Source of the DNA: a virus
IMG/VR virus record: IMGVR_UViG_3300009108_000051
Coordinates: 1 to 24,454 of that record
Reading direction: 5' to 3' (one strand)
Length of the DNA stretch: 24,454 nucleotides
A program made the position numbers and the translations under genes. The notes below the pieces were generated by a model that did no database searches, was not told where the DNA came from, and saw nothing but the letters and a program-made list of their open reading frames with translations. The stretch's first letter is position 1, and every line of letters starts with the position of its first letter. Shown in pieces: positions 1 through 24,301 of this stretch.

Positions 1-130
1 CCATCGCAGTGGCTACGTAGCTCTGGAAGCATCAAAAGACCTTTTAGATAGAGCAGGTTACAAGCCTCCTGATCGTTCACAGGTAGCGGTTGGTGGTGAG
101 GTAAGTATCAAGATTGACTTGGGGGGGTGA
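1..130 (+). CDS. Terminase small subunit, C-terminal end (partial)
   Basis: An open frame enters from the left edge (codons start at base 2) and stops with TGA at 128-130, giving the last 42 residues of a protein. The visible part reads as a helix containing ASKDLLDRAGYKPPDR, followed by a short beta-like tail ending SIKIDLGG. A C-terminal 'LLDRAGYKPP' element plus an acidic or hydrophobic tail is typical, from memory, of small terminase subunits of podoviruses, which recognise the packaging site and hand DNA to the large subunit. The position upstream of terL agrees, although three other genes lie between. The DNA-binding N-terminus is outside the window, so the call rests on a short tail and on context. 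Confidence 0.5.
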   Translation, partial: HRSGYVALEASKDLLDRAGYKPPDRSQVAVGGEVSIKIDLGG

Positions 131-142
131 AAATTCCTCCTT

Positions 143-160
143 GGTAATCACGTGATTCCC
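143..160. promoter_or_regulatory. Palindrome with CACGTG core in the intergenic gap
   Basis: Bases 146-157 form a perfect 12-bp palindrome (AATCACGTGATT), extending to 18 bp with one mismatch (143-160). It lies in the 88-base gap between the partial small terminase and the next gene. It is not followed by a T run, so it is a poor terminator and a better candidate protein-binding site. The gap also holds an AT-rich stretch (about 179-207) leading into a good ribosome site. Function is unknown. Confidence 0.35.
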
Positions 161-218
161 CACTACACACACAGGTCTTAAAAAAGGTCATTAACATATT
201 TTTTTAAGGAGAAGGTAA

Positions 219-410
219 ATGTCTGAGATAACGACTGTAGCTGATTTGAAGAAGCGTATGCGTTTAGTTGTAAATACGTTGACTAAGGACTACGATGGTT
301 TTAATCATCTGGATACTATTGGTAAGAAGCTAGATGAGGTTGAGAGTCTGGTTGATTATATGACTGATAAATTGGATATGAGGGCTAGTAGAAATGGCGG
401 ATCTTCATAA
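219..410 (+). CDS. Small hypothetical protein, 63 aa
   Basis: Not recognised. The ATG start follows a strong ribosome site (AAGGAG at about 207-212) in an AT-rich leader. The product is charged and almost certainly helical: LKKRMRLVVNTLTKDYDG, then a heptad-like segment LDTIGKKLDEVESLVDYMTDKLDM that could form a coiled coil. It has no signal peptide, membrane segment or cysteine. Its end overlaps the start of the 472-aa gene by 17 bases, which suggests translational coupling. It sits between small and large terminase genes, so a packaging or capsid accessory role is possible, but nothing in the sequence shows it. Confidence 0.7.
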   Translation: MSEITTVADLKKRMRLVVNTLTKDYDGFNHLDTIGKKLDEVESLVDYMTDKLDMRASRNGGSS

Positions 411-1812: not shown

Positions 1813-1834
1813 TTGCTGGACTAACTGCCTATAA

Positions 1835-1850
1835 TGTTCCACGTGAAACA
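1835..1850. promoter_or_regulatory. Chromosomal-type parS site (ParB-binding sequence)
   Basis: The 16 bases TGTTCCACGTGAAACA match the well-known bacterial chromosomal ParB/Spo0J site (consensus TGTTNCACGTGAAACA); the halves are inverted repeats with one mismatch (C against T at position 5). The site ends at the base before the ATG at 1851, so it takes the place where a ribosome site should be. It lies in a 38-base gap between genes, so it is not forced by protein coding. With both strands and a few allowed variants, a chance match in 24 kb is of order one in ten thousand or less. Binding has not been shown. Confidence 0.7.
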
Positions 1851-2057
1851 ATGAGCTTCTTAACTAATCTATCCTATGATGACCTATCCCGCCTCAGAGA
1901 AGTTGCAAAGAAGGTCTTTCTTCAATACAACCCCCCGGAGTTCTATACGGATCGGGAGGCAGACAAGATCATTGAGGCTATGGGGCCAGAGATTATGGAA
2001 AGAAGACTCAAAGAACTTATCGACAGCCAAATGATGGGTGGCAAGATTGGGATATAA
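1851..2057 (+). CDS. Conserved-looking small protein upstream of terL, 68 aa
   Basis: No assigned function. The product starts MSFLTNLSYDDLSRLREV and continues with FLQYNPPEFYTDREADKIIEAMGPEIMERR, a compact, charged, helical protein; from memory, small proteins of this look occur just before terL in related podoviruses. ATG 1851 is the only usable start: no ATG, GTG or TTG occurs upstream in frame back to the stop at 1770-1772. There is no convincing ribosome site because a parS-like sequence occupies the 16 bases before the start, so expression may depend on coupling or on whatever binds there. Its last 20 bases overlap the GTG start of terL. A packaging accessory role is an inference from position only. 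Confidence 0.7.
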   Translation: MSFLTNLSYDDLSRLREVAKKVFLQYNPPEFYTDREADKIIEAMGPEIMERRLKELIDSQMMGGKIGI

Positions 2058-3600
2058 CTTCGAGTATAAGCCCTCTGGAGATACGATTAAGGAGTTTATG
2101 AAGGATGATTCCTTCTTTCGTGGTATTCGTGGCCCCGTTGGTAGCGGTAAATCTGTATCTTGTTGTGTAGAGATCTTTCGTAAGGCTGCATCGCAGAAGA
2201 AATCCCCTGATGGCAAGAGGAAAAGCAGGTGGGCAATAGTTAGAAATACTAATCCTCAGTTAAAAACTACTACTATTAAGACATGGATCGACTGGTTTCC
2301 TGAAGAACACTTCGGGAAGTTTATGTGGTCAGTTCCTTATACACATCGTATAGCAATAGGGGATATAGATCTGGAAGTCCTATTCCTGGCCCTTGATAGA
2401 CCCGAAGATGTAAGAAAATTACTCTCACTAGATCTTACGGGGGTGTGGGTAAACGAGGCTAGGGAGGTTCCAAAGACTATTGTTGATGCCTGCACCATGC
2501 GAGCTGGCCGTTTCCCCAGCATGAAGGATGGTGGCCCTAGTTGGTATGGGGTTATTTGCGATACGAATGCCCCTGAAGACGATCATTGGTGGCCTATTAT
2601 GGCAGGGGAATCTCCTATGCCAGATCATATGAATAGGGAAGATGCCTTGATGATGGTTAAGCCTGATGATTGGCACTTCTATACTCAGCCTCCAGGGATG
2701 ACAGAAGTAAAGAATGAGGATGGAGAGGTTGTTAGGTATGGGAGAAATATCAAGGCCGAGAACTATAACAATCTTCCTGCCGACTATTACCCTAAAATTA
2801 TTACGGGAAAGAGCAAATCATGGATAGACGTGTATGTTCTGAACAAGCTAGGAACAATCGAAGAGGGCAAGGCGATCTATCCGATGTTCAACGAGCAAGT
2901 ACATATAGCCAAAGAGAAGATTCACACAGATCCAAACTCGGATGTATACATTGGGATCGACTTCGGGCTTACCCCTGCTGCGGCATTTGCCCAACGTACT
3001 GCGTCAGGCAGGTGGACAGTGATTCATGAAGTAGTAACAACAGATATGGGAGCTGTTCGTTTTGCCGAACTTCTTAGGAATGAGATTTCAAGAGTGTGCC
3101 CAGATAATGAACTACATATCTATGGCGACCCTGCTGGTGACTTCCGAGCACAGACAGATGAAGTAACTCCATTCCAGATATTGAGAGCAAATGGGATCAA
3201 GGCTGTTCCTGCCCCCTCTAATGATCCGGTTCTGCGTATAGAATCAGTCCAGGCTGCTATGAATAGGCTAGTAGATGGCATGCCTGGCTTCTTGATTGAT
3301 AGCGGTTGCGTAACCTTGATTAAAGGTTTCCGTGGCGGCTATCACTACAGAAGGATTCAGGTGTCAGGAGAGGCTAGATACGAAGAGAAGCCTACAAAGA
3401 ATAAGTATAGTCACGTACATGACGCTATCCAATACTTATTCCTGGGGGCAGGAGAAGGTAGAAATCTTACGACTAATGCCAATAGACCAACTAGAGTATC
3501 TAACGGGAGAAAGAATTGGAGTATATGGGATCAGAGATCAGGCTTTGGGAAGCCGCGGGGATGGGACAAGACGAGCCGCCAGAATTCGACTGGATGGTGA
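2038..3600 (+). CDS. terL: Terminase large subunit (packaging ATPase and nuclease)
   Basis: This is the motor that translocates DNA into the prohead through the portal and cuts it. The ATPase half has a Walker A motif GPVGSGKS (residues 32-39) and a Walker B-like strand VWVNEAREV with N139-E140, the Asn-Glu variant being known in podovirus terminases. The RNase H-like nuclease half has its acidic residues in place: GIDFG (D308), YGDPAGD (D364, D368) and SHVHDAIQYL (D462). Length, 520 aa, is normal. The start is GTG 2038, overlapping the previous gene; the next in-frame ATG is at 2098, only 11 residues before Walker A, which makes the GTG the better choice. No truncation is seen. The 3' end overlaps the next gene. 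Confidence 0.95.
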   Translation: MARLGYNFEYKPSGDTIKEFMKDDSFFRGIRGPVGSGKSVSCCVEIFRKAASQKKSPDGKRKSRWAIVRNTNPQLKTTTIKTWIDWFPEEHFGKFMWSVPYTHRIAIGDIDLEVLFLALDRPEDVRKLLSLDLTGVWVNEAREVPKTIVDACTMRAGRFPSMKDGGPSWYGVICDTNAPEDDHWWPIMAGESPMPDHMNREDALMMVKPDDWHFYTQPPGMTEVKNEDGEVVRYGRNIKAENYNNLPADYYPKIITGKSKSWIDVYVLNKLGTIEEGKAIYPMFNEQVHIAKEKIHTDPNSDVYIGIDFGLTPAAAFAQRTASGRWTVIHEVVTTDMGAVRFAELLRNEISRVCPDNELHIYGDPAGDFRAQTDEVTPFQILRANGIKAVPAPSNDPVLRIESVQAAMNRLVDGMPGFLIDSGCVTLIKGFRGGYHYRRIQVSGEARYEEKPTKNKYSHVHDAIQYLFLGAGEGRNLTTNANRPTRVSNGRKNWSIWDQRSGFGKPRGWDKTSRQNSTGW

Positions 3601-4013
3601 TCTTTACGGATCGTGAAGAACTAAAGTGGTGGGATTATCTCTATCCTATACATACTAGAAAAGGATTTAGACACTGTTTTGCTCTTGGATACCAGCCTGG
3701 ATCTTATCATTGGATAATGCTTGATTGGACTTCCAGCCATTTGCAGCTATGGATTTATCATCCCTTGCAAGCTAAAGCCGTTATGTCTTGGGCAAAGAAT
3801 AGACCAGAGACTACTATAGTTTCCTATAGACCAAAAAAGAACAAAGGTTCCGTTTTTTCTTTTCCTATACTATACTGTGTTGAAGCAATCAAGCGGTTAC
3901 TCTCTATAAGAGGCTTTTTTGTGATAACTCCCTACCAACTTTTTAAGAAGATTATGGGAAGTGGGGGTACGATTATTTATCAAGATGGAGCAAAAAAATG
4001 GTTCGATTCGTAG
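3525..4013 (+). CDS. Possible permuted papain-like (NlpC/P60-type) cysteine hydrolase
   Basis: A 162-aa protein of uncertain function. It opens with DEPPEFDWMVIF and WWDYLYPIHTRKGFRHCFAL, then a beta-rich middle with WIMLDW, then FPILYCVEAIKRLLSI near the C-terminus and a final TPYQLFKKIM helix. A histidine in an early strand (H50, counted from ATG 3525) and a cysteine at the head of a later helix (C118) is the order seen in circularly permuted NlpC/P60 and papain-like hydrolases; this assignment is inference. A role in cell-wall cleavage or protein processing is possible. The start is uncertain: TTG 3516, ATG 3525 (GGAG close upstream) or ATG 3561; all overlap the end of terL. Confidence 0.7.
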   Translation: MGSEIRLWEAAGMGQDEPPEFDWMVIFTDREELKWWDYLYPIHTRKGFRHCFALGYQPGSYHWIMLDWTSSHLQLWIYHPLQAKAVMSWAKNRPETTIVSYRPKKNKGSVFSFPILYCVEAIKRLLSIRGFFVITPYQLFKKIMGSGGTIIYQDGAKKWFDS

Positions 4014-4198
4014 CTGATATTATTGGAGGTAAAGATAGTCCTCCTGCCCCTAGACCTGAGCCTGTAGTTAAAAAAGTAGCTGATAGTTCAGAAGCAAAAG
4101 CTAGAGCAAAGAAGCGTAGAGCTAGACTTGCAGGAGCAAAAGGACTTCTCTCTGGTGGCTTTAAGGGTTATGGCGAAAAAGATACTTTAGGAGGTTAA
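3998..4198 (+). CDS. Small basic protein with C-terminal TLGG tail (paralogue 1)
   Basis: This 66-aa protein has a Pro-rich segment (SPPAPRPEPVV), then a Lys/Arg/Ala helix (EAKARAKKRRARL), then LLSGGFKGYGEKDTLGG. It resembles the next gene in order and composition: a PPAP segment, an Ala/Arg/Lys helix ending in ARL, then a Gly-rich motif ending TLG. Small proteins like this between terL and the portal are common in podoviruses and may be virion components, but no function is established. It overlaps the upstream gene by 16 bases and ends one base before the next start, with AGGAGG at its end (AGGAGGTTAACATG) acting as ribosome site for paralogue 2. Confidence 0.75.
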   Translation: MVRFVADIIGGKDSPPAPRPEPVVKKVADSSEAKARAKKRRARLAGAKGLLSGGFKGYGEKDTLGG

Positions 4199-4199
4199 C

Positions 4200-4403
4200 A
4201 TGGGATTTTTATTTAGCAGCCCTAAACCGCCCGCCCCTGATCCAGAACTTGAAGCGTCACGTAAAAGGCGTGAAGAAGAGGCTAGAGCAAAACGTGTTGC
4301 ACAAGCTAAAGAACGTGCAGGGGCAACACAAGCTCGTCTTGAGAAGCGTGGCCGACTCTTCGGAAGCTATCGAGGCTTTGAGGATGAAGAAACTTTAGGA
4401 TAA
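4200..4403 (+). CDS. Small basic protein with C-terminal TLG tail (paralogue 2)
   Basis: This 67-aa protein has the same plan as its upstream neighbour: a hydrophobic start MGFLFSS, PKPPAPDPE, a long charged helix (ASRKRREEEARAKRVAQAKE), ARLEKRGRLFGSYRGF, and an end EDEETLG. The shared order and the aligned ARL, G-(Y/F)-(R/K)-G and TLG elements suggest tandem duplication and divergence. The start has an excellent AGGAGG ribosome site 8 bases upstream. The gene ends 3 bases before the portal. It is probably a minor head or head-tail component by context; there is no direct evidence. Confidence 0.75.
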   Translation: MGFLFSSPKPPAPDPELEASRKRREEEARAKRVAQAKERAGATQARLEKRGRLFGSYRGFEDEETLG

Positions 4404-4406
4404 GTT

Positions 4407-5966
4407 ATGGCAAATCCAAAACAAATTATTCAGCGATACAGTAAAGCTAAGTCTGCAAGACAGAATTGGCTGAATGTATGGCAGGAATGCTATGAATACT
4501 CTCTTCCTTTAAGGGAGAGTTTTTTCTTTGAATCTCCTGGTCAATCAAGGATGGATAAGATCTTTGATGAGACAGCAGTAGTAGGAGTTCAGGAGTTTGC
4601 ATCAAGACTACAACACGGCATTGTGCCAAACTTTGCTACTTGGTTTCGCTTGGAGCCTGGTTCAGATATTCCTGATGAGATGCGTACTGAAATACAAGGA
4701 CAACTGGATGAGATTACAGAATATGTAGGTCAGATTATTCAGCATTCCAACTTCTCTCAAGAAGCCAATGAATCATTCCTTGATATTGCAGTAGGTACTG
4801 CAAATATGTTGATTGAAGAGGGGGATGAGAAGAATCCTGTTAATTTCCTCTCTGTTCCTTTGTCACAGGTCATTCTGGATTCGGGGCCATTCGATGATAT
4901 TGATGGCGTATTCCGTGAACGCAATGTAAAAGGTAAAGATATTCAAACTATCTGGCCTAAAGCTAAACTATCTCAGGATCTAAAAGATCGCATCATTAGA
5001 AACCCTGATAGCAAGGTAAGCCTCATAGATGCTACTTATAGGGATTGGAGCAACAAGAAGGAGGAGGTTTATTATTACTGTGTTATTGATCTTGAAAGCC
5101 AGACTAAAATTGTTTCTGGTGAATTCAAAGGTGAAGGGGCTAGACCTTGGGTGAATTTCCGTTGGGCAAAGGCTGCTGGTGAGATCTATGGTCGTGGCCC
5201 CTTGATGAACGCTCTTCCTGCTATCAAGGTTGCTAACCTTACTACTCAATTAGTGCTTGAGAATGCTCAAATGACAATTGGTGGAATCTGGCAGATGGAT
5301 GATGATGGGGTAATCAATCCAGATACGATTGATCTTGTTCCTGGCACAATTATTCCCGTGTCTCCTAATTCTCGTGGATTACAGGGCGTACAATCCCCTG
5401 CAAATTTTGATGTATCTCAACTTATTATTCCTGCTATGCAGGATAATATTAGGAAAGCCCTTTATAATCAAGATCTTGGAAAGACTGATACAACTCCAAT
5501 GTCTGCAACAGAAGTGGCTGCAAGACAGGCTAATCTAGCAGAGATTATTGGTTCTGCTTATGGTCGCTTGCAAGCTGAGTTTGTAAATCCTGTACTTCGT
5601 AGGGTAATTTCTATCCTCAAAAAGCAGGGAAGGATAGATATTCCTAAAGTGGATGGGCGTGAAGTGAAGATTGTAGCTAAATCTCCATTAGCAAGAGCGC
5701 AAAGAAATCAAGATATTCTACAATTGACTAACTTTATTGGCATGATTACTAATACGATGGGGCCAGAGGCGGCATCACAGTTTATCAATGCTGATGAAGC
5801 AGTAAAACAATTGGCTGAGTGGTATGAAATTCCTCAGTCAATCGTTGTTGATCCTGCTGCAAGGAGGATCGCACAACAGAGGGCAGCTCAACAGGTGCAA
5901 GCAATGCAACCCGCACCTGAACAAGCTGGTGGTATGGCCGATGTAATGCAACAACTTATGCCATGA
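4407..5966 (+). CDS. Portal protein (head-to-tail connector)
   Basis: The portal forms the ring at the special capsid vertex through which terminase packages DNA and to which the tail attaches. The protein is 519 aa, close to T7 gp8. It starts QIIQRYSKAKSARQNWLNVWQECYEYSLP, the typical helical opening of T7-like connector proteins, followed by a segment for internal fold residues (RLQHGIVPNFATWFRLEP) and later EVAARQANLAEIIGSAYGRLQAEFVNPVLRR, the long helix of the crown or stem region. The C-terminus is Gln/Ala/Met-rich, as in many portals. It overlaps the next gene by 4 bases (ATGA). It looks complete. Confidence 0.92.
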   Translation: MANPKQIIQRYSKAKSARQNWLNVWQECYEYSLPLRESFFFESPGQSRMDKIFDETAVVGVQEFASRLQHGIVPNFATWFRLEPGSDIPDEMRTEIQGQLDEITEYVGQIIQHSNFSQEANESFLDIAVGTANMLIEEGDEKNPVNFLSVPLSQVILDSGPFDDIDGVFRERNVKGKDIQTIWPKAKLSQDLKDRIIRNPDSKVSLIDATYRDWSNKKEEVYYYCVIDLESQTKIVSGEFKGEGARPWVNFRWAKAAGEIYGRGPLMNALPAIKVANLTTQLVLENAQMTIGGIWQMDDDGVINPDTIDLVPGTIIPVSPNSRGLQGVQSPANFDVSQLIIPAMQDNIRKALYNQDLGKTDTTPMSATEVAARQANLAEIIGSAYGRLQAEFVNPVLRRVISILKKQGRIDIPKVDGREVKIVAKSPLARAQRNQDILQLTNFIGMITNTMGPEAASQFINADEAVKQLAEWYEIPQSIVVDPAARRIAQQRAAQQVQAMQPAPEQAGGMADVMQQLMP

Positions 5967-6238
5967 AGAAAAATTTATCGAAGAAGACTATAAAATTAAG
6001 TTCACCAGACGGAATCCAAAGATCTGAAGAAGTAGAGAGAAGGATTAACGAATCTCTTGCTCTCTGCTTCTCTGATAAAGCCGGAGAATATGCTTTGCAA
6101 TATCTCCGATCTATCTCAATCGAGCGTGTAATGGGGCCAGGATTAGATGCTAACTCTCTGATTCATATGGAGGGGCAGCGTTTTATCGTAGGTATCATTG
6201 AACAACGACTCAAACTAGCGAAGGAGAATCAGCCGTGA
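5963..6238 (+). CDS. Bbp19-like small phage protein
   Basis: This 91-aa protein has the pattern of the Bbp19 family (named after Bordetella phage BPP-1): a helix ending in ALCFSDKAGEYALQYLRS, a short variable region, then LIHMEGQRFIVGIIEQRLKLA. Members sit between portal and scaffold or capsid genes in many podoviruses; the exact role is not known to me, with a head-assembly function likely by position. It overlaps the portal by 4 bases at its start and the scaffold GTG by 4 bases at its end, so the three genes are probably translationally coupled. Its 3' end carries AAGGAG (6221-6226), the ribosome site of the scaffold. Confidence 0.75.
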   Translation: MKKNLSKKTIKLSSPDGIQRSEEVERRINESLALCFSDKAGEYALQYLRSISIERVMGPGLDANSLIHMEGQRFIVGIIEQRLKLAKENQP

Positions 6239-6981
6239 CAGACACGACAACTGATACAGTTATAGAAGGGGGCGAACCTGCTGTTGTAGAACGTCCTGAA
6301 TATTTACCTGAGAAGTTTTGGAATACTGAAGAGTCTTCTCCTAATGTGGAAGTGTTAGCTAAGTCCTATACTGAACTTGAAAGTAAGTTTGGACAACGTG
6401 CTTCTGCATTAAAAGAAGAGTTACAGGCAGAAGTTAATAAGCCTAGAGAGGGTGTGCCTGAATCTATTGATGGATATGCCTATGAATTTCCTAAAGAGGG
6501 ATTACCTGAAGGGTGGGAGATTCAAACTGCTGAAGATGATCCTATGCTTGGATGGTGGAAAGATACTGCTTTTGCCAGAGGCATGACACAAGATGAGTTC
6601 CAGGAAGGAATTAACAAGTATACAGAAATGCTAGTTAGTGGTGTTCCTGATAAAGCAGCAGAGATGAAAACTCTTGGAGATAATGCACAAGAGCGTATTG
6701 ATCGGGTAGATCTTTATCTTTCTAAAAATCTTTCCGAAGATGAATATAATGTAATGGCAGATTTTGCTATCAATGCCGATGCAATTCAGGTTCTTGAAAA
6801 GCTAATTGGTATTGAAGGAGAACCTTCTATTTCCAGCTTCGGGGGAGAACCATCTACCGGATCTAACTCAGAAGATGATATTAGGGCGATGATGGATGAT
6901 CCTCGATACTGGAAGCCAGGTGAAATGGATGATGGTTATCGAACTAAAGTTACAGAAATGTGGCAAAAATTATATGGTTAG
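6235..6981 (+). CDS. Capsid assembly scaffolding protein
   Basis: A 248-aa, strongly acidic protein directly before the major capsid gene. The opening (MTDTTTDTVIEGGEPAVV, then PEYLPEKFWNTE and VLAKSYTELESKFGQ) is the recognisable plan of podoviral scaffold proteins, which guide capsid protein into proheads and then leave. The C-terminal helical part (YWKPGEMDDGYRTKVTEMWQKLYG) would contact the capsid protein. The start is GTG 6235 with AAGGAG 8 bases upstream; no ATG lies near. It ends in TAG, and the same frame stays open for 24 more codons into the capsid leader, a point treated separately as a finding. Confidence 0.85.
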   Translation: MTDTTTDTVIEGGEPAVVERPEYLPEKFWNTEESSPNVEVLAKSYTELESKFGQRASALKEELQAEVNKPREGVPESIDGYAYEFPKEGLPEGWEIQTAEDDPMLGWWKDTAFARGMTQDEFQEGINKYTEMLVSGVPDKAAEMKTLGDNAQERIDRVDLYLSKNLSEDEYNVMADFAINADAIQVLEKLIGIEGEPSISSFGGEPSTGSNSEDDIRAMMDDPRYWKPGEMDDGYRTKVTEMWQKLYG

Positions 6982-6983
6982 GG

Positions 6984-7117
6984 TTGCAATTTGAAAAAAT
7001 ACACTCTAATCTTCACACAACGGCCCCATTACAAGAAAGATTCGGCCCCCTGGTAACCGAATTAGAGATGTAAAGGACAACCGCTGACAACTTGTTTCAC
7101 TTTAATGGAGAACTGTA
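6984..7117 (+). promoter_or_regulatory. Structured leader upstream of the major capsid gene
   Basis: This 136-base gap is the longest around the head genes. Bases 7039-7045 pair with 7057-7063 (GATTCGG with CCGAATT, G-U closing pair) around an 11-base loop. CTCTA(AT) at 7004-7010 can pair with (AT)TAGAG at 7061-7067 and enclose that hairpin; the two stems share 2-3 bases. CGGCCCC is repeated at 7021-7027 and 7043-7049, and GACAAC at 7076 and 7086. A weak sigma70-like promoter is possible (TTGCAA 6984-6989, 15 bases, TCTAAT 7005-7010). Together these suggest a promoter and/or RNA element that raises capsid expression; no known family is assigned. Confidence 0.45.
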
Positions 7118-7939
7118 ATGGCTAATACAATTGATACGGCCTTTGTAAAACAGTTTGAGAGTGAGGTTCATCTTGCTTTTCAGCGCATGGGGGCCAAACT
7201 TCTTAATACTGTACGTCGCAAGACAAATATAACTGGTGAGTCTACTACTTTCCAGAAAATCGGTACTGGCACTGCTGCTACCAAATCTCGTAATGCCCAG
7301 GTTCCACTGGCTAATCTAGTACATACTAATGTAGAGGCTTCTTTAAGCGACTACTATCTTGGTGAGTATGTTGATAAGCTGGATGAGCTGAAGATTCAGC
7401 ATGACGAGCGTGGTGCTGTTGCCACATCCCTTTCTGCTGCGCTTGGTCGTCAGTCAGATCAGCTTATTATTGATGCTCTTGACGGGTCTGGTAATGATAC
7501 TGCTGATGCTGGTGGCGTAACTAAAGCTAAACTGGAAACGGTTTATGAGGCATTCGGTAATAACGATGTTGCTGATGATGGACAGCGTTATCTATTGGTA
7601 TCTCCTCAAGGCTGGACTGATCTTATGGGCATTTCCGAGTTTGCTTCTCGTGATTATGTTCCAGAGGCAGAACTTCCTTGGAAGGGTGCAGGATTCTCAG
7701 CTAAGCGTTTCATGTCATTCTTTGTCATGACTCACTCTGGTTTGAGTAAAACTGGATCCGTTCGTAGCTCACTTGCATATCATAGATCTGCTGTAGGTGC
7801 TGCTTCTGGAGCCGAAGTTGGAATTGATGTTACTTGGCAGGGTAAGGAACAGGCTAACCTGATCGTTGCTTCCATGTCTCAAGGTGCTGCATTGATTGAC
7901 GACAATGGCGTTTACAAAGTAGATCATACTGAGTCATAA
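7118..7939 (+). CDS. Major capsid protein
   Basis: The 273-aa product follows the scaffold gene and reads as a capsid protein of the podovirus type, expected to adopt the HK97 fold. It begins NTIDTAFVKQFESEVHLAFQ and continues GAKLLNTVRRKTNI, with the E-loop-like segment FQKIGTGTAATKSRN and later DYYLGEYVDKLDELKIQHDER. The alpha-helical SLSAALGRQSDQLIIDALDG and the late segment IDVTWQGKEQANLIVASMSQGAALID fit the P- and A-domains. No maturation-protease gene is seen nearby, so the protein is probably not cleaved. The ribosome site is GGAGAA at about 7105. It is followed after 11 bases by a small capsid-associated gene with its own AAGGAG site. Confidence 0.9.
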   Translation: MANTIDTAFVKQFESEVHLAFQRMGAKLLNTVRRKTNITGESTTFQKIGTGTAATKSRNAQVPLANLVHTNVEASLSDYYLGEYVDKLDELKIQHDERGAVATSLSAALGRQSDQLIIDALDGSGNDTADAGGVTKAKLETVYEAFGNNDVADDGQRYLLVSPQGWTDLMGISEFASRDYVPEAELPWKGAGFSAKRFMSFFVMTHSGLSKTGSVRSSLAYHRSAVGAASGAEVGIDVTWQGKEQANLIVASMSQGAALIDDNGVYKVDHTES

Positions 7940-7950
7940 GGAGAACTATC

Positions 7951-8190
7951 ATGGCATTTAGCGCATCTAGCTTTAAGCGTATCAATGTTGGTGATAAGGC
8001 TCTGTACCTTTACACTACTACTGATGCAATCGCAACTATTGCTGGCTCCGGCTATTTCAATAATGCGTATGCGGAAGTAGAGCAGGGTACAGTAATTATC
8101 GCTGTCGATACCGACCAAACTTCTGTTGATCTGCTTGCAGTATCTAGCGCAACTGGCGCAACTACTGTAACTGTAGTAAACGGAACCTAG
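7951..8190 (+). CDS. Small capsid-associated (possible decoration/cement) protein
   Basis: This 79-aa protein starts MAFSASSFKRINVGDKALYLYTTTDA and continues GSGYFNNAYAEVEQGTVIIAV, ending in a threonine/valine-rich tail (TVTVVNGT). The composition, with many small residues and beta strands and almost no lysine or arginine, suits a compact beta protein. Genes of this kind lie directly after the capsid gene in many podoviruses and are usually unnamed; a decoration or cement role is inferred from position and size. It has AAGGAG 7-8 bases before the ATG. The terminator-like hairpin follows at once, so this gene ends the head transcription block. Confidence 0.75.
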   Translation: MAFSASSFKRINVGDKALYLYTTTDAIATIAGSGYFNNAYAEVEQGTVIIAVDTDQTSVDLLAVSSATGATTVTVVNGT

Positions 8191-8197
8191 TAAAAGT

Positions 8198-8236
8198 GGG
8201 GAGGGGTTACTTCATGTAGCCTCTCTCCTCTTCTTT
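8198..8236 (+). terminator. Intrinsic terminator-like hairpin between head and tail genes
   Basis: Bases 8198-8210 (GGGGAGGGGTTAC) pair with 8216-8228 (GTAGCCTCTCTCC): a 13-bp stem with three G-U pairs and a 5-base loop TTCAT, followed by the T-rich run TCTTCTTT. The position, just after the capsid block and before the tail adaptor gene, is that of the T7 late terminator. Its 3' arm can also pair with the next ribosome site (see 8221-8246), so it may be an attenuator instead of a full stop. Confidence 0.7.
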
Positions 8237-8246
8237 AAGGAGAGAG
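8221..8246 (+). promoter_or_regulatory. Alternative hairpin masking the tail-adaptor ribosome site
   Basis: CTCTCTCC (8221-8228), part of the terminator 3' arm, is perfectly complementary to GGAGAGAG (8239-8246), the ribosome site of the gene at 8250. The 8-bp stem with a 10-base loop excludes the terminator stem. In the one fold transcription may stop but the ribosome site is free; in the other transcripts continue and the site is hidden. Seen in sequence; regulation is inference. Confidence 0.5.
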
Positions 8247-8249
8247 ATT

Positions 8250-8825
8250 ATGGGTGCAACAAGTACGGTTGCAGTAGCACAAAAAGCATGTGCTTTAATT
8301 GGGATTGCCCCAATTACATCTTTCTCTGACGATTCAACCGAGGGCATTGTTCTTAATGCTATCTATGATGAGATAGTAGAGGCAGAACTTTCTGTATATC
8401 CATGGCGATTTGCTATGTCACAGAAAACATTGAATCGTTTAACAGCAACTCCATCTTCCCGATGGGATGCTGCCTACCAAATTCCAAACGATATATTGAT
8501 GATAAGAGCTGTTACTGTTAGTGATGCTCCTATTACTTATGATCGTTATGACGATATGATTTACTGTGATGCTGGCTCATCTGATACAGTGGTTCTTGAT
8601 GGAATCTTTGTGCCAGATGTAGTTGAATGGCCTCCATATTTCAGGATCGGTATTGAATATAGATTGGCTGCTGCGCTGGCAAGTGGTGTAACAGTACAGC
8701 CAGATCTAGCTCAATTGTTCGATGAGAAAGCTGAGTTTCAGTTTAGAAAGGCAAGGCATGTAGATAGTTCTGCTCAGACAACTAGAAAGGTTGATCTGAC
8801 ACGTATTACTGATTACAGGATGTAA
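8250..8825 (+). CDS. Tail tubular protein A-like head-tail adaptor (T7 gp11-like)
   Basis: A 191-aa protein, close in size to T7 gp11 (196 aa), which forms the ring between portal and nozzle. The start TVAVAQKACALIGIAPITSFSDDSTEG and the following NAIYDEIVEAELSVYPWRFAM are classic for this family: a helix, then the conserved YPWxFA(M/T) motif and KTLNRL. Later VEWPPYFRIGIEYRLAAALASG and the C-terminal helix (AEFQFRKARHVDSS) agree. It has a very strong AAGGAGAG ribosome site, partly sequestered by the upstream hairpin. It ends one base before the nozzle gene, so the two tail proteins are probably co-translated. Confidence 0.9.
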   Translation: MGATSTVAVAQKACALIGIAPITSFSDDSTEGIVLNAIYDEIVEAELSVYPWRFAMSQKTLNRLTATPSSRWDAAYQIPNDILMIRAVTVSDAPITYDRYDDMIYCDAGSSDTVVLDGIFVPDVVEWPPYFRIGIEYRLAAALASGVTVQPDLAQLFDEKAEFQFRKARHVDSSAQTTRKVDLTRITDYRM

Positions 8826-8826
8826 T

Positions 8827-11022
8827 ATGAAACGGGTAAGAACTTTCCAGACCAATTTCTCGGCTGGACAACTTGACCCGTTAATGGCTTCTCGTACTGA
8901 TACGAAAGCGTATGTTAATGGGGCAGACACTCTAACAAACTTCTCTCCTCTTGTTCAGGGAGGAATTAAGAAAAGACCAGGTACAGTCTATCTTCAGGAC
9001 TTAACTGAAGCAGTAAGATTGATTCCTTTTATCTTTAATGAATCTCAGCTTTATATTATTGCTCTGGCTAACGCCAAGATGTATATCTATGGGGTTGATG
9101 GAACATTGCATCAGACAATATCTTCTGGCGTGCCATGGACTACAAGCAATCTTTATGAGGTTCGTTATACCCAGCGAAGTGATGTGATGATTCTTGTACA
9201 TGAGGATTTTGCTATGCAAAAACTCACCCGTACAGGGGCCACTACTTTTACTTTAGCTGATCTGGATTTTGAGACAGGGGATACTGGAAAGAAGTATGCT
9301 CCTTTCTATAAGTTTGCGGATAGTGATGTGACGATTGATGCTAATGGAACATCGGGGTCTATTACTTTAACAACATCAGCTAATCACTGGACTACAGATC
9401 ATGTAGGAGCAAGAGTTTCTATTCATGGACAGCAAGCAACAATTACCGGATACACTTCTGCTACTGTAGTTAGTGCTACAACAAATGAAGACCTGTTCAC
9501 AGACCAGACATTAACTGCTTCTGGTGGAGGATGTAACCAATTTGTTGTAGGCGAGGTTGTTACTCAGACAGATTCTCAGGCAGAGGGTGAGATTGTATCT
9601 GTAGATAGCGATACACAAATCACTGTTGCTAATCTGAAGAATGCCAAGTTCAAGACTAATGGGGCTAGTGAGCTAACTGTAGGTGGCGAGTCTGGTGCTG
9701 AAGTTACTGTAACAACTGTAGCTGATACTGCTACTCCTGAAGCTACAAAGGATTGGCAGGAAGAGGTGTTTAGTGATGAACGAGGATATGCCAGATCCGT
9801 AATCTTTCATAGTCAGAGACTATGGTTTGGTGGATCTAAGGAGCTTCCCGCACATTTGTTTAGTTCTGCTGTAGCAGACTTCTTTACTTTTGATGTAGGT
9901 ACTGCGCAGGATAGTGATAGTATTCAGGCTCCAATTGCCTCAGATCAGGTTAATAGCATTAACCATCTTGTATCAGCAGGGCATCTTCAGGTATTTACAG
10001 ATCAGGCAGAATTCTATTGTCCTGAATCTGAAAATTCCCCCTTGATTCCAGCAGACTTCAATATACGAAGACAAGCATCTTATGGAACAAGTGATGTACG
10101 TCCTGTTACTTTTGATCGTGCAACACTATTTGTTCAAGGGGCGGGTAAGGTTATTCGTGAGATGCGCTGGGAAGAGATTGAGGGTGGGTATACTCCTAAC
10201 GCAATCTCACTTATAGCTACCAATCTTATTGATGAGGATGGCATTAAGGATTCAGCCGTAGTTTATGGGATGGAAAAACGACCTGAACAGTTTGCTTTTT
10301 TTGTTAATGATGATGGAACGCTGCTTGTCTATCATGCTGCTAGAGCAGAAAATATCTCTGCATGGTTTAAGTGGGAGACTGATGGCCTGGTTAAAGATGT
10401 AGTAGCCATGGAAGAGAATTTGTATCTCTATGTAGAGCGTACTATTAATAGTGTTACAAAACATTACCTGGAGAGACTAGATGATTCAGTGACGCTGGAT
10501 TGTTCCAAATCTGTTACTAGCGGATCAGCTACAGCCACATTTTCAGGATTCACACATCTTGCACAAGAAGAGATCTCTGTTGTAGCAGATCATGAGCAAA
10601 CTTCTCATGCTGATTATCACAAAAATGCTTTCTATCTTGAAGAGTATACGCCTACTGCTGGTGGAGTAATTACCCTTACAGGTGGATATACTACTTATAC
10701 AATAACCGCAGGATTCAAATATACAGCAACCGCTAAGACTATGCCTATGGATTGGCAAGCTAGTGATGGACAGATTACTGGATTACCCAAAAGAATATCT
10801 GCTGTTGATATGGTTTTGGATAGTTCAATGGTTGCTAGTGTTGAGGGTAACTCACTACTTATGCGTGATGTTACAGATGATTTATCAAAACCACCTACTG
10901 CCAAAACAGGTAGATTCAGATTCTATCTGTTAGGATGGGATAAGGAGGGGCAGATAACAATGAGTTGTCCATGCCCACTAGAGATGACGTTACTAGGACT
11001 AATGATGGAGGTAGCATACTAA
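8827..11022 (+). CDS. Tail tubular protein B-like nozzle protein (T7 gp12-like)
   Basis: The 731-aa product (T7 gp12 is 794 aa) should form the tail nozzle, a hexameric beta-propeller-like tube. The conserved opening reads TFQTNFSAGQLDPLMASRTD, then YVNGADTLTNFSPLVQGGIKKRPGT. In the middle is a propeller-type region (RSVIFHSQRLWFGGSKELP, FTDQAEFYCPESE and FNIRRQASYGTSDVRPV). An insertion of beta-rich repeats at about residues 165-300 (GSITLTTSANHW) may decorate the outside. The end reads ITMSCPCPLEMTLLGLMMEV, a typical terminal strand. It shares one base with the next gene (TAATG), whose ribosome site lies within its last codons. Confidence 0.9.
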   Translation: MKRVRTFQTNFSAGQLDPLMASRTDTKAYVNGADTLTNFSPLVQGGIKKRPGTVYLQDLTEAVRLIPFIFNESQLYIIALANAKMYIYGVDGTLHQTISSGVPWTTSNLYEVRYTQRSDVMILVHEDFAMQKLTRTGATTFTLADLDFETGDTGKKYAPFYKFADSDVTIDANGTSGSITLTTSANHWTTDHVGARVSIHGQQATITGYTSATVVSATTNEDLFTDQTLTASGGGCNQFVVGEVVTQTDSQAEGEIVSVDSDTQITVANLKNAKFKTNGASELTVGGESGAEVTVTTVADTATPEATKDWQEEVFSDERGYARSVIFHSQRLWFGGSKELPAHLFSSAVADFFTFDVGTAQDSDSIQAPIASDQVNSINHLVSAGHLQVFTDQAEFYCPESENSPLIPADFNIRRQASYGTSDVRPVTFDRATLFVQGAGKVIREMRWEEIEGGYTPNAISLIATNLIDEDGIKDSAVVYGMEKRPEQFAFFVNDDGTLLVYHAARAENISAWFKWETDGLVKDVVAMEENLYLYVERTINSVTKHYLERLDDSVTLDCSKSVTSGSATATFSGFTHLAQEEISVVADHEQTSHADYHKNAFYLEEYTPTAGGVITLTGGYTTYTITAGFKYTATAKTMPMDWQASDGQITGLPKRISAVDMVLDSSMVASVEGNSLLMRDVTDDLSKPPTAKTGRFRFYLLGWDKEGQITMSCPCPLEMTLLGLMMEVAY

Positions 11023-11498
11023 TGAATCCAGCTACAGCAATGCTTGCGTCCACTGCTGTCAGTGCAGTCTCCTCTATTCAAGCTGGAAGATATGCCAAAG
11101 CAGCAGCGGAAGCTGAAGCACAGCAATATAAAGAACAGCAAGAGATGGCTAAGATTCAGGCATTGGAAGATGCAGCAGCTCGTGAAGCTGAAATGAATCG
11201 AATCAATAGTGCCAATCTTGCATTGGCGGCATCCAAAGGATATGAGCCTTGGGAGTCCGCTTCATTCCTTGCCTTACGTGAGGAAAATATAGAAGAGTCT
11301 CAATGGGATATTGCTGGAGTTCGATTGATGGGCCTGGCTAATGTTCGTAAATATGGATTAGGTGCATTTGAAAGTAAAATGAGTGGTAAGGCTGCCATGT
11401 GGTCAGCTTATGGTCAGGCTGGTTCTACGATGCTTGGTGGTTACTCCAAATGGAAACAGGCGCAAATTCCTGCCCCCGCTGCATCTGTAAATACCTGA
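11022..11498 (+). CDS. Internal virion (ejection) protein, T7 gp14-like
   Basis: A 158-aa protein. I take ATG 11022 as the start: GGAGGT (11007-11012) sits 9 bases upstream and the start overlaps the nozzle stop (TAATG). A longer in-frame version from TTG 10965 has no such support. The N-terminus is a hydrophobic helix (PATAMLASTAVSAVSSIQAG), followed by a long alanine-rich, charged coil (AKAAAEAEAQQYKEQQEMAK) and a helical SANLALAASKGYEPWESASF, then LANVRKYGLGAFESKM. This plan, with a small hydrophobic helix, helix-rich body and place before two very large proteins, matches T7 gp14, which is ejected into the outer membrane on infection. The identity of the function is by analogy. Confidence 0.82.
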   Translation: MNPATAMLASTAVSAVSSIQAGRYAKAAAEAEAQQYKEQQEMAKIQALEDAAAREAEMNRINSANLALAASKGYEPWESASFLALREENIEESQWDIAGVRLMGLANVRKYGLGAFESKMSGKAAMWSAYGQAGSTMLGGYSKWKQAQIPAPAASVNT

Positions 11499-11516
11499 AG
11501 ATGCTAGGAAAAAATA

Positions 11517-14486
11517 ATGGCAAAGTTAGAACGATATGCAGTAAACAAAACCTCAGTAGTTAGACCTGTAGGGATTGTTCCTGCTACAAGTCTAAAGGCT
11601 TCAGCTAGAAGTATTCAGCAGTTTGCTCAAGTAGCAGATCAATTCTCTGATCTCTTTCAGGAGAAAGCATTAACAAAAGCTAGGCAGCAAGCGGAGCAGG
11701 ATGTTGTTACAACTCCTACTCAAAAGTATCAGGAGGCTTTTCTTGATACTGAGAATAGCTATGTGACTGATGCTAATGGTAATCCTGTTAATGCTGAATT
11801 TATATCTCAGATTCCTCGAAGAGATCCTGGATTATTTGATAATAAATACAATAAGACCTGGAATAATATTGCATCACAACGCAATGCTAATAACGCCACT
11901 CTAACTGCATGGGGTCAGATGGATGCGTGGCACGCAGATAGATTAGAAGATCTGGACTTTGGTCTCTTTGAGGCTACTAGCCAATCATACCTTGAGACAA
12001 CTCTTTCCAAGTTAGATCCTCGTATTCAGGCTTCTGTGGCTATGAAGCTGCAGCCTCGTCAGCAAACTCTTTATAACGATCTTCGTACAAAGAAAATTGC
12101 TAGAGATAGAAAGCTAAATAAAGAGGCAAGAGAAAGTACGATTAGTAGTTTCATGGGTCAGTTAGAGACAGGAATTCTTAATCACGGAATTGATGATCCT
12201 GGTCTACGGCAAATATACACGAATCTTGCTGATACAATCTATTCTGGTGTAACTGTTGGAGATTACCCTGTTGAAGCAGCAGTTAGAGCTCTGAATGATG
12301 CTGGGTCAAGATTGGCTCGTGGTCAACTAATTGGACAGATCAATGATATGCTACCTAATGGGATCTCTCCTGAAGAGGATCTTAAAATGGCTGAAATTAC
12401 CAGTGCTATTGGTATTGGTGATATTAAAGTAAAAACTCTACGCTTTGATCCTGAAAGCAAGTCTATTGCAGTAGAGGAGGTTTCTATATCTTCTCTAATT
12501 CCTGATGCCAAAGAGCGTAGATCTCTGGCTATTGATCTTAGTAATATTGCTGCAAGACAACGTGATCTAACTGTTAGCCATCAAAAACTAGAGGCTGCTG
12601 CTTGGCAAGATAGCATGGCAGAGTTTCAGAATATTGCCACAATTGCTACAAGGGATGGGGATACAGAAGCATATGATCGTGCTGTATCTGGTATTGCTGC
12701 CCTTGAAAGCAGCATCCGTACCTCAAATAATGAAGCTAAGGCTGATATGGTTCAAAAAACCCTTCAAGCTAGAGCATTTATCTATGAGCGTGGCGATATG
12801 GCCCAAACTGAAAGAGAGTATCTTGCCTCTCTACAGGAGATGGAAAATGCTCTTAAACCTGAATTGTTGGCTGCTGTTCCAGGATACTATCTTGATGAAG
12901 AAGATCGTAAGGCTTTTGTTTCAGGGCAGACATTAAGTAATCGTATAGAAAGACTGAAAGGGCAACATACAGTTTTATCTAACTATATTAAAGAATTAAG
13001 CAAGCCAGCCAAAGGGCAAGAAGAATTTGCTGGGTATATTCGTAACAGGACAGGCTCACTAAATCCTACTAAGGATGCCCGTAACTTTGCAGATCAATAC
13101 CTAAGAACCTATCATAATGTTGAAGAAATTGATTGGCAAGAAGGGGGATTCAGGGAGGCAATTAGTAAAGCTGCCCCTGTTCTGAGGACAGGTATTATTC
13201 CTCCATCTTTGGCTGCAGACTTAGTATCTGCTATCAGTTCTGGAGATGCTGAGAGAATTCAGAATGCCTACAAAGTCTATGAGTATATGGATAATCATCG
13301 TAAATTCCTTACCAAGGACAATGTTAAAAACCAGATTGGTAATGAGGCATTTCGTACATATGAATACATGAGATCAGCTATTGAGCTAGCTGGCACATTC
13401 CCTACTGATGTTAATTTCCTAGAGAGGGTGCAGAAAGTATTCAATGGAGAGACACGTCTGCATTGGAAGGATCTTGACAGGGAAGCTAGAGATGCTGCTA
13501 CTGGATATATTGATGAGCAATTAGACCCTTGGTTTGGTTTTGATAAACCCCGATTCCCTAATAAGATGCGAAATGAGCTTTACTCTATTATTCCTGAGAC
13601 CTATGAAGAGGCAGAAGGAGATATGCCGTCAGCAGGTAGACAGGCTGCTGAGTTAGCTTATGACAGAATTACCAAAACCCGTTGGGGGCATGGTGATCCT
13701 TTTATGTTTGGGGAAGGATGGACAGAGTACCCTGTATCAAAAGCGTACCCTAAATTATCACAACAAGCTGTTAAGAATTTTGTACGGTTTGAGATTCAAG
13801 ACAGAACAGATGGTGATTATCTATTTGCTCCTAATGAGGCTGCTCCTGTAGGAACAGGAACAAAACTAATATTTCATCGTATGGGGAGAGATGGTCAGCC
13901 TGTCTATAAGTTAGTAAGGAATAATGTAGAAAATATTGTAGGGCAAGATCTGATTGGTACAGAAGTTCTGGATAGAGATGGTCATATTGTAGAAATTGAT
14001 CTGCGCCCCTTGAGTCGTGAAGTCTCAATAATCCGTAATGGTATTACTAAAACAGATCAAGCACTTGAGGCTATGACCAATATGTACTGGAGGAATCCAA
14101 CTCCAGAGGTACGTGCTGATATAGAGGCTCTTGTAGTAATACGCAATGCAATGACTCGTCATCCGCAAACGTCTGTCCCTGTAGGGCCAATTGATATTGA
14201 TTGGCATGATGAATCACCAATGGGCGGGAAGCCTGGGATTAGAGCTATTGACAGACTTCCTAGTGAGTGTCCTCCAGGATACCGGATGGGGCCAAAAGGA
14301 TGTTACCGAGTAGCGACAAAGGGTATTCATCGCACAGAATTAGGTGAACGTACTACCCAAAAGATTCCTGCAAAAGATAGAAAGGATCTTGCAGGGCATT
14401 ATGATAGCTGGGTTACAGGACAAAAGTATTCCGAGCTACCTGTGAAAAGTTTTGACTGGTGGTACTTTAACAAGTACAAGAAATAA
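11517..14486 (+). CDS. Internal virion (ejection) protein, T7 gp15-like
   Basis: A 989-aa helical protein (T7 gp15 is 747 aa). It starts AKLERYAVNKTSVVRPVGIV and then has a strong amphipathic helix (SLKASARSIQQFAQVADQFS) of the type used to build the ejection tube. Most of the body is helical, with repeated Gln/Glu-rich stretches and no membrane segment or signal. The segment NNATLTAWGQMDAWHADRLEDLDFGLF and the long coil around residues 340-420 agree with periplasmic-tube proteins. Near the end it has two cysteines in CPPGYRMGPKGC and a basic end (WWYFNKYKK). It ends 2 bases before the next gene. The assignment is by order, size and composition; sequence similarity to gp15 itself is expected to be weak. 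Confidence 0.8.
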   Translation: MAKLERYAVNKTSVVRPVGIVPATSLKASARSIQQFAQVADQFSDLFQEKALTKARQQAEQDVVTTPTQKYQEAFLDTENSYVTDANGNPVNAEFISQIPRRDPGLFDNKYNKTWNNIASQRNANNATLTAWGQMDAWHADRLEDLDFGLFEATSQSYLETTLSKLDPRIQASVAMKLQPRQQTLYNDLRTKKIARDRKLNKEARESTISSFMGQLETGILNHGIDDPGLRQIYTNLADTIYSGVTVGDYPVEAAVRALNDAGSRLARGQLIGQINDMLPNGISPEEDLKMAEITSAIGIGDIKVKTLRFDPESKSIAVEEVSISSLIPDAKERRSLAIDLSNIAARQRDLTVSHQKLEAAAWQDSMAEFQNIATIATRDGDTEAYDRAVSGIAALESSIRTSNNEAKADMVQKTLQARAFIYERGDMAQTEREYLASLQEMENALKPELLAAVPGYYLDEEDRKAFVSGQTLSNRIERLKGQHTVLSNYIKELSKPAKGQEEFAGYIRNRTGSLNPTKDARNFADQYLRTYHNVEEIDWQEGGFREAISKAAPVLRTGIIPPSLAADLVSAISSGDAERIQNAYKVYEYMDNHRKFLTKDNVKNQIGNEAFRTYEYMRSAIELAGTFPTDVNFLERVQKVFNGETRLHWKDLDREARDAATGYIDEQLDPWFGFDKPRFPNKMRNELYSIIPETYEEAEGDMPSAGRQAAELAYDRITKTRWGHGDPFMFGEGWTEYPVSKAYPKLSQQAVKNFVRFEIQDRTDGDYLFAPNEAAPVGTGTKLIFHRMGRDGQPVYKLVRNNVENIVGQDLIGTEVLDRDGHIVEIDLRPLSREVSIIRNGITKTDQALEAMTNMYWRNPTPEVRADIEALVVIRNAMTRHPQTSVPVGPIDIDWHDESPMGGKPGIRAIDRLPSECPPGYRMGPKGCYRVATKGIHRTELGERTTQKIPAKDRKDLAGHYDSWVTGQKYSELPVKSFDWWYFNKYKK

Positions 14487-14488
14487 TC

Positions 14489-17400
14489 ATGGCTGAAGAT
14501 CCTAGCGAAAAACTACTAACTGCAATTCCTGGGTTTTATCCTCCAGGTCAGGAGAGAGAGCTTGTTGGTGTATCGGGTGAATATGATCCGATGGATAATT
14601 TTTTTCGCTCTGTCATGGTCGATACCTGGGTGGGAGAGCTTGGATTAGCTGCCTCAGCTAAAGCAGAGGCTATGCAAGCTATGGGGAGATGGGAGGATGA
14701 TCCTTACTATAATCCTCTATTAGATGCTGATAATGAAGGTTATGAGCGATTTGTGATGGATTCTCGTTCTCCAGGCGAAAGCTATTATTTCCGCACTCTT
14801 GCTGACAAGAACATTATGCTCAAGAGAGAACTAGAGGTTGGTGGTGCTGGATGGAGTAGATTTCTCTCCGCATTTGTAGACCCTGTTACTTATGTGCCTA
14901 TTCCTATAGCAAAGGGGTTAGGGTTTGTTAAAGGCATGAAGAAGACTGCCATGCCTGTACTTGGAAGCGTATCGGCTTCAGAAGTTACTCGACATAAACT
15001 AGATCCAACATCAACCTTTGAAGAGACTGCGATTGCTATTGGTGCAGGTACTATCTTAGGTACTGCATTAGGTGGTTTCTCTGGTCATGTAGGGCGTAGA
15101 GCTGGAGGTGCCGGACATGGTGGCGTTGGTTCTGTTCGTGCTATTGGAGACAGACTGAACAATATCTTCAGAAGATCTGATTCAGAGATTAAACCTGTAG
15201 TCCAGAAAGCTGTATCAGAGGTTATTTCTGATGCTGAAACAGGGCTTGCCCAACAGGGTTATAAGTTGATTGCTGGCGAGACAGAGAATCTTGCTCAAGC
15301 TTCTGGTAAGAGAATGGAGGTCAGATTTGATGAGGCTAAGATCCGAGAAGACTATAGAACTGGGTTCAATTATCTGAGAGGTATTGGTACTGGAGCTGCC
15401 AAACAGAAAGAAAAAGTCTTTGAGGATATAGATCTAGTCAAGTTAAAGGATTGGTTTGATCGTCATGGTGGAGAGGATAAGTATGTAGAGTTTATTCTTG
15501 AGCATGAGTTAGCCCATATTAAGTTAGGTCATGCAGGGAGAGGTGTATATCCTGAAGATCGAATGAGTCCTGTAGCTATTGAGTTTGAGAGAGCTGCAAA
15601 TGAAATTGCTTTTGAGAAGATTGGTCTTGATACAGCCCAAATTCAAAAGATTATTATTCCTGAAGAGGTTCTGGATACGCAGGCTAAAGCTGCTCAACGA
15701 CTAAAAACCAGAGAGAAGTCTGCTATTACTCTGAAAGAAGGGGCTAAACAGCGTAGAAAAGAAGCCAAAGAGATCCGTAAACGTGCTGAGACAAGAGGCA
15801 GTAAATCATGGCGCACTCAGGATATTAACAAGGCAGGGGCATTAGAGCGTGAGGCTGAGAAGATGGAGAGTAGGATTGCTCCCATTGAACAATCTATGCG
15901 TGGTATGCGTGATGATCTGGAGAACATTAGTTCCAGAATCAAGGATCTTGAGTCTATAGATGATATAGATGCTCTGGCTCTCAAAAGTGCTATGGGTCTT
16001 GAGAAGATGAACATTTCTCAGATGCCTTGGTATCTTCTCAAGAATACAAAGCTCAAAGATATTGCTCCTCATCTTGCTGCAGATTGGATGAAGCTGGCTC
16101 ATGAGATTGCTGGCTCACCAGGATTGACTATTGAGGGGGCTAGAGAGGGGGTTGCTCCTCCTATCTCTGTAGAGATGCTGGCTAAACAGTGGCTCTATCC
16201 TTACCGTACTGCAATGGAGACAACCGATAAGATCTATTTGGATTATATTGGTAAAGCTGGTGCAACTAGAGGACAGGTTGTAAGCGAGAAGAGTATACAG
16301 TTCTTTGGTAAAAAACCTCCAGAGGGTAAGGTTAAGATTGATGAGTTTAGAAAATCAGTTGGCCGTGCCTTGATGAACAATGATCGTCCAACGAATGACC
16401 CTCACATTGATGAGGCTGTTCGTGCATGGCGAGAGGTGTTCATTAAGTTTGAAGATGCTGCTAAAGAGACAGGAGTGTTTCAATCTACTAGAAGAGCAAA
16501 ACAGAATGTTGAGTATTGGAAAGCTAGGGTTGATGAGGCTAGGGCTACTGGCAAAGATCCAGAGGCCGCTCTGTTCCAGCTAGATGAGGCTGAGTCTCTT
16601 GTTGAGCTACTGAAGAATTCAGAGGGTAGAGAGGGGCGTAAATACTTTCATCGCATGTGGCGCATGGATGCGATCACTAAAAATGAAGATGCTTTTACTG
16701 ATAAATTAAGAACGCACTTTCGGAAGAATCCTTATGTATGGGTAGGTGGTAAACTGGAAAGGCTCTCTCTGGATGAGGTTAATCTTGAGGCTAGAGTTAG
16801 AGAGACTGTAGCCACAATCAAGAAAGAAGCTACCTTCAATGATACGATTGGAATTATGGAGAAGGGTGATCGTACTGCCAATACTCAAAACCGTATCGAG
16901 CAATTAAAACGAGAGATAGAGACTGTAGGAAATAAAGAGATTATTCCTGGTGTCTCTGCCAGAGAGGTTAAAGAGGCTCAGATTCGTAATTTGGAAGAGC
17001 AGTTAAAGAAGGGCAAGACTAAGGGAGTTGGTGGCCCTAGCCCCTTGTTAGTCAGAAAACTTGATATTGATGACCATGACTTTGCTGAGTTCTTGGAGCA
17101 GGATATTGATATTGTAGGCCAGCATTATGTAATGAAAATGGCTCCTGTTATTGAGATGGCTCGTAAGTTTGGAGACTTTCGTATTGAGTCAAGAATGGAG
17201 GAGCTTACTCGTCTGATTGATGATGAGATTGCAGCTAATCCTCACTTAGAAAAAGCTCTAACAAAAGAGAAAGCGAGACTTGTTCAGGCTACAGAAGATC
17301 TCCGAGATAAGGTTCTTGGTGTATTTGGTGTGCCTGATAATCCCGATGCGCTTCATGTGAAAGTTCTTCGTAATCTAAAGGCGTGGAATGTTCTTGCTTT

Positions 17401-18550: not shown

Positions 18551-18553
18551 ATA

Positions 18554-24017: not shown

Positions 24018-24301
24018 ATACGAGTCACTGCTGGATGAAAGTACGAAGGTACATTCTCCTCCCACCAGTAGTGACTCTTTTAACGAGCTGCACAACTCAT
24101 GTCTACAATGAACGTGTACTGATAGAGGATCACACCCAGCCTTTTCAGGAGCAATCATCTGATGCTGGATTCCCTGATCCGGTGTTGAGAGATAACTTGT
24201 TTGAAGCAAAGGAAATCTCAGAATCTATATATGACGAGGGTGACGTGTATAGAAAACTCTCAGGAGTACACGTATGTTTTCCGAGACTACAGGAGTGTTG
24301 A
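24014..24301 (+). CDS. Small lipoprotein (possible o-spanin)
   Basis: A 95-aa protein from ATG 24014. An alternative ATG 24035 gives a cleaner signal peptide: MKVRRYILLPPVVTLLTSC, with basic start, hydrophobic core and the lipobox LTSC. Lipidation of that cysteine (C26 from the first ATG, C19 from the second) is expected. The mature part is acidic and probably extended (ERVLIEDHTQPFQEQSSDAG, then EISESIYDEGDVY). As an outer-membrane lipoprotein next to a membrane-anchored coil it could be an o-spanin, but it lacks the proline-rich look of typical Rz1. The start overlaps the upstream stop by 4 bases. Confidence 0.65.
   Translation: MNTSHCWMKVRRYILLPPVVTLLTSCTTHVYNERVLIEDHTQPFQEQSSDAGFPDPVLRDNLFEAKEISESIYDEGDVYRKLSGVHVCFPRLQEC

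Follow-up and report, generated by a model that had tools for sequence, protein, structure and literature searches.

The window analysed here is a virus record of 24,454 bases, and the leader RNA, the genes and the stem-loop from the capsid region to the tail tube gene lie on its forward strand. The major capsid protein is encoded at 7118–7939 (PF19821, E = 2.6e-61; phrog_3437, E = 5.1e-58) and is followed by an open reading frame of 79 residues at 7951–8190 that matches phrog_18004, a family of unknown function (E = 9.4e-13); judged from its position only, this frame may encode a capsid decoration or head protein. It closes with the tandem stop codons TAG TAA (8188–8193), 4 nt 5' of a stem-loop. 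Downstream, with its ATG at 8250, lies the gene for a tail adaptor resembling T7 gp11 (8250–8825; phrog_394, E = 1.2e-27), followed by that for a gp12-like tail tube protein (8827–11022; phrog_376, E = 5.2e-137). T7-like podophages share the gene order seen here, in which terminase, portal, scaffold, capsid, small open reading frame, gp11-like adaptor, gp12-like tube and internal virion proteins follow one another. A nucleotide search of a phage collection with positions 6500–10500 returned no match, and a protein search yielded 64 distant records, nine of which we examined, with T7 added.

The stem-loop between the small frame and the adaptor gene consists of a 5' arm at 8198–8210, the 5-nt loop TTCAT at 8211–8215 and a 3' arm at 8216–8228, found both by a scan for terminator-like sites and by folding. 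Its 13 pairs, three of which are G-U, are followed directly by the T-rich tail TCTTCTTT at 8229–8236, the presumed transcript end, in which six of the eight bases are T and two are C. The RNA of 8190–8236 folds with −24.6 kcal/mol (z −5.96), a value that none of 200 shuffled sequences reached, and the hairpin alone with −21.3 kcal/mol. This stem ranks first among the 26 terminator-like sites in positions 1–20000, where 12.2 would be expected in shuffled sequence, and it ends 21 nt before the adaptor ATG. The 13-bp terminator-like stem that an earlier note on this DNA had placed here, with its 3' arm at 8216–8228, thus withstood the analysis. The two hallmarks of an intrinsic terminator are both present: a stable, G+C-rich stem-loop and, immediately 3' of it, a T-rich tract, if an imperfect one. 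The one variant seen within the species, G8219A, changes a U-G pair of the stem to U-A. Within 8200–8219, the 5' arm also carries GGAGG, which resembles a ribosome site, and an ATG in the loop is immediately followed by TAG (TAA in L002), forming a start-stop pair; as both are absent from the relatives, they are probably there by chance.

To collect relatives, we searched with the adaptor, which gave 48 loci, and with the capsid protein, which gave 80; their synteny was mapped. Junctions were taken from 119 of the 124 sequences, including the window; in the remaining five (L001, L023, L049, L075 and L102), either the capsid or the adaptor gene is missing or the sequence is a duplicate of the window. 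Because several loci share the same contig, we counted over 52 unique 60-mers, which form 31 clusters; an alternative set of 59 representatives includes near-duplicates. The 60 nt preceding the adaptor start have a z below −2 in 26 of the 31 clusters, with a median of −3.2, and five fall short of this limit. At control junctions, the same limit was passed in 1 of 20 cases before the tube gene and in 3 of 28 before the capsid gene. A junction hairpin followed by at least five T in eight bases was found at 42 of the 59 representative loci. By cluster, such a tail is present in 22 of 31, 17 with uninterrupted and five with interrupted stems, and absent in nine (represented by L020, L024, L037, L046, L048, L080, L115, L116 and L120). 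The loose hairpin criterion alone is unspecific, since away from the junction a limit of −9 kcal/mol admits 411 weaker terminator-type hairpins over 436 kb, or about one in every kb. In three groups, each with only four distinct sequences, 4 of 10, 3 of 17 and 3 of 12 pairs are altered on both sides while 100% of the cells remain paired; for the first of these groups, the number of double changes taken by itself does not exceed that in shuffles (234 of 500). The stem is real and under selection, and its position and pairing are kept.

Seven of the nine named phages besides T7, which are relatives or outgroups, have a hairpin at the capsid–adaptor junction (Hodr, MEP301, Piluca, YeP5, Vibrio 1.138.O, CKB-S2 and 237E40-1), five of them with a clear T run, and several of these named relatives possess textbook intrinsic terminators with long T runs. 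No junction hairpin was found in ZCVPP1 and ctVRi840, in which the capsid and adaptor genes overlap or leave almost no gap between them. Many relatives, among them L074, L076, L077, L079 and L085, carry two strong hairpins in tandem between the capsid unit and the adaptor gene. Intercistronic hairpins with CTTCGG loops occur in T4 and elsewhere, and several relatives likewise carry a GGGGGCTTCGGCCCCC stem at this junction, whereas the loop in the window is TTCAT. At L024, L030, L037 and L042, the GGGGGCTTCGGCCCCC hairpin is located 6 nt 5' of the adaptor start, with neither a ribosome site nor a T tract. For the clusters of L024 and L037, in which a CTTCGG hairpin lies so close to a start that has no ribosome site, a role in processing or stability fits better.

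A late terminator between capsid and tail genes is a known kind of element. In the T7 record (V01146), gene 10B ends at 24162 and the terminator Tphi is annotated at 24210, 18 nt before gene 11, which begins at 24228, so that the earlier note had rightly put the stem of the window at the position of the T7 late terminator. Like Tphi, the window's element is a strong stem between the capsid gene and a gene 11 homologue, directly 5' of the adaptor ribosome site; its sequence, however, is unrelated by inspection. A published account describes Tphi as the one terminator of T7 RNA polymerase and as incomplete (PMC6068830). For phage LUZ100, a long-read transcriptomics study reports what appears to be a strong terminator directly behind the capsid gene, similar to that of T7 (PMC10134795). 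The likeness to our element, here predicted from sequence, lies in this placement directly after the capsid gene. LUZ100, for its part, encodes a T7-like polymerase and has a local phage promoter.

A search with PF00940, the T7-type polymerase family, gave no match in the window, in the records of 17 relatives or in eight named phages, many of these records being fragments, while T7 itself as the positive control scored E = 9.9e-110. A T7-type polymerase is likely to be missing from these phages, most of whose records are fragments. As no such polymerase was found, in contrast to T7, our reading of the element is that of an intrinsic terminator on which the host polymerase stops.

The adaptor ribosome site AGGAGAGAG occupies 8238–8246, as judged from its sequence and its spacing to the ATG at 8250. 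Its part GGAGAGAG at 8239–8246 is complementary to 8221–8228, as the earlier note had said of eight bases of the 3' arm, and the pair U8229–A8238 extends this helix to nine pairs, 8221–8229 with 8238–8246. Such a match is only mildly unusual, since shuffling of the 41 nt upstream gave an equally good one 29 times in 1000; it is the longest among 21 gene starts tested in the window, where the open reading frame at 219 has a match of 8 bp. The complementarity is exact in all six records of the same species (the window and L002–L006), and two pattern scans of IMG/VR revealed no record beyond these six. In the nearest relatives outside the species, whose capsid proteins are 84–88% identical, the longest match between the ribosome site and upstream sequence is only 3–4 nt. 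Scores of 8–9 at the distant junctions L024, L030, L037, L044 and L120 derive from the junction hairpin itself, which there lies near the start codon. The earlier note had named a failure of relatives to preserve both pairings as refuting its case, and this is what is seen: the terminator pairing persists among them, the ribosome-site pairing does not.

Folding of the junction clearly favours the terminator. At equilibrium, its stem has a probability of 0.9996 and the 9-bp ribosome-site hairpin one of about 9e-5, so that the ribosome site is not mostly held in that hairpin; in forced ensembles, the latter is 6.0 kcal/mol worse. In a simple simulation of the nascent RNA, the terminator stem is the minimum-energy fold at all 17 polymerase positions from 8232 to 8264. 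The ribosome-site hairpin dominates (probability at least 0.79) only when the block on the 5' arm extends to 8203 or farther; with the arm blocked to 8199 or 8201, the terminator stem is still favoured, at 0.99 and 0.77, respectively, the latter being borderline. By the footprint rule, a ribosome stopped at the TAG of 8188–8190 should reach to about 8196–8201. According to the earlier note, the two folds exclude each other. The exclusion is not complete, because with the terminator formed a weaker hairpin of six pairs (8229–8234 with 8238–8243) still partly covers the ribosome site, and the two states therefore differ less than the earlier note held.

We consider it likely that the element at the junction is an intrinsic terminator of the host RNA polymerase, probably a leaky one, placed directly behind the capsid gene and the small frame that accompanies it. 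Transcripts ending at about 8229–8236 would carry the capsid gene and those upstream, and the fraction reading through would carry the adaptor and the remaining tail genes. Such a partial stop would lower the amount of tail RNA relative to capsid RNA, and the hairpin would in addition shield the capsid mRNA at its 3' end. That termination takes place here, with what efficiency, by which polymerase and with what effect on the protein ratio, we infer from the stem and its tail. The main function could also lie in the capsid mRNA itself, with the hairpin stabilising its 3' end or acting as a signal for its processing rather than as a terminator. The nine clusters of 31 that keep a hairpin or structure without a T-rich tail, and the frequency of CTTCGG loops among clusters lacking such a tail, are in line with this, but the window and 22 clusters have T-rich tails and several named relatives have the long T runs of textbook terminators, which makes it unlikely as an account of the window. 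A terminator of the T7 type, read by a single-subunit polymerase encoded by the phage, would agree with a gene position identical to that of Tphi, but given that PF00940 was not found in the window, the 17 relatives or the eight named phages, fragmentary as many of the records are, we regard it as extremely improbable.

In the reading put forward in the earlier note, the 3' arm pairs either in the terminator or in the ribosome-site hairpin, and attenuation together with translational masking through this competition could set the head-to-tail protein ratio. Its attraction lies in the nine exact pairs shared by the six records of the species and in the dominance of the ribosome-site hairpin when enough of the 5' arm is blocked. 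Classical attenuation, however, requires the competing strand to lie upstream. Here, the competing strand, 8238–8246, lies downstream of the presumed stop at 8229–8236 and cannot pair before the terminator is complete; because it needs RNA that is transcribed only after that stop, the ribosome-site helix cannot decide termination or act as an antiterminator. Nor are both alternative pairings conserved, the second being kept in no relative outside the species. Attenuation by competition was thus rejected on the order of transcription, the energies and the lack of conservation. A ribosome at the upstream stop codon was likewise rejected as the usual trigger, as the terminator stem remains favoured within its expected reach, if borderline at 8201. 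Masking on readthrough RNA during heavy translation upstream is unlikely for the same reason, since the 5' arm must be blocked through 8203 or beyond and the stopped ribosome is expected to extend to about 8196–8201. With these points taken together, the proposed switch appears very improbable, and the complementarity seems to be coincidental and local, resulting from the proximity of a pyrimidine-rich arm to a purine-rich ribosome site.

A second RNA element precedes the capsid gene. At 7014–7090, upstream of the capsid start at 7118, the window matches a model of a leader RNA with 25.5 bits (E = 3.8e-4); the model was built from 14 leaders, and the window was not among the training sequences. 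The model was searched against 57 sources with 409,059 bases in total, a set that contains the loci used for training and several of the same kinds. It detected the leader in 43 of them (E up to 0.032), in each case immediately 5' of the capsid gene. CKB-S2 (E = 0.074) and Hodr (E = 0.27) gave weak matches, and a match elsewhere, in L120 (E = 0.39), is at chance level. Twelve sources gave no match: L021, L046, L093, L115, T7, ZCVPP1, ctVRi840, MEP301, Piluca, YeP5, 1.138.O and 237E40-1. The outer helix has the form GG-[C]-CC...GG-[AYAA]-CC and the inner hairpin the form NNNN-G-[C]-CC-loop-GG-[AYAA]-C-NNNN, so that one 1x4 internal loop (C/AYAA) occurs twice in the leader. Both helices are consistent with the minimum-energy fold of the window's own sequence (z −2.12). 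In the model-fitted alignment, which leans towards the structure, both partners change in 8 of 12 pairs, a number reached by none of 500 shuffles; in a plain alignment of the 14 leaders, this holds for 5 of 12 pairs, which 26 of 500 shuffles reach, and the covariation score is reached by none.

The strict leader pattern occurs in 66 IMG/VR records. Among the 63 that were newly read, the capsid family lies directly downstream in 61, and the other two end 29 nt past the motif; the remaining three (L081, L116 and L120) also have the capsid family downstream. Five matches to the pattern in cellular genomes, none of which precedes this capsid family, look like chance. At gathering scores, Rfam had nothing on the window or 14 relatives, and permissive Rfam searches of the leader gave a single match at chance level. 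The existence of the leader as a conserved structure is well supported by these data. In L007, L017, L018, L058 and L065, of the close group, the leader is preceded at a distance of 8 nt by a site resembling a sigma-70 promoter, TTGCTA-17-TATTCT or TATATT, so that the capsid mRNA would begin with the leader; in the window and in most of the distant relatives, the search upstream of the leader gave no convincing sigma-70 site.

We propose that the leader is a 5' stabiliser or a protein-binding leader, antitermination being the boldest reading. In that last case, its target would be the host polymerase or a bound protein, and it would alter the frequency with which the terminator is passed; the put RNA of phage HK022 alters terminator passage likewise. 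Leader and terminator would then bracket the capsid unit and jointly set the head-to-tail ratio, a speculative link that we consider very unlikely. Vibrio 1.138.O, 237E40-1, Piluca and YeP5, which have the terminator and no match to the leader, argue against a strict form of it.

A literature search brought up no recognised description of a switch at this junction or of the leader RNA. The analysis removes a tempting but unsupported switch and leaves two elements around the capsid unit. The leader, so far undescribed, is less ordinary than the terminator and is a part for specialists: it covaries, it has no Rfam match and it adjoins the same capsid family in every record in which this can be checked. 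The other element, a probable late terminator behind the capsid gene in the style of T7, persists in a group of podophages for which the search gave no T7-type polymerase, and the logic of the gene order thus seems to outlive the enzyme.
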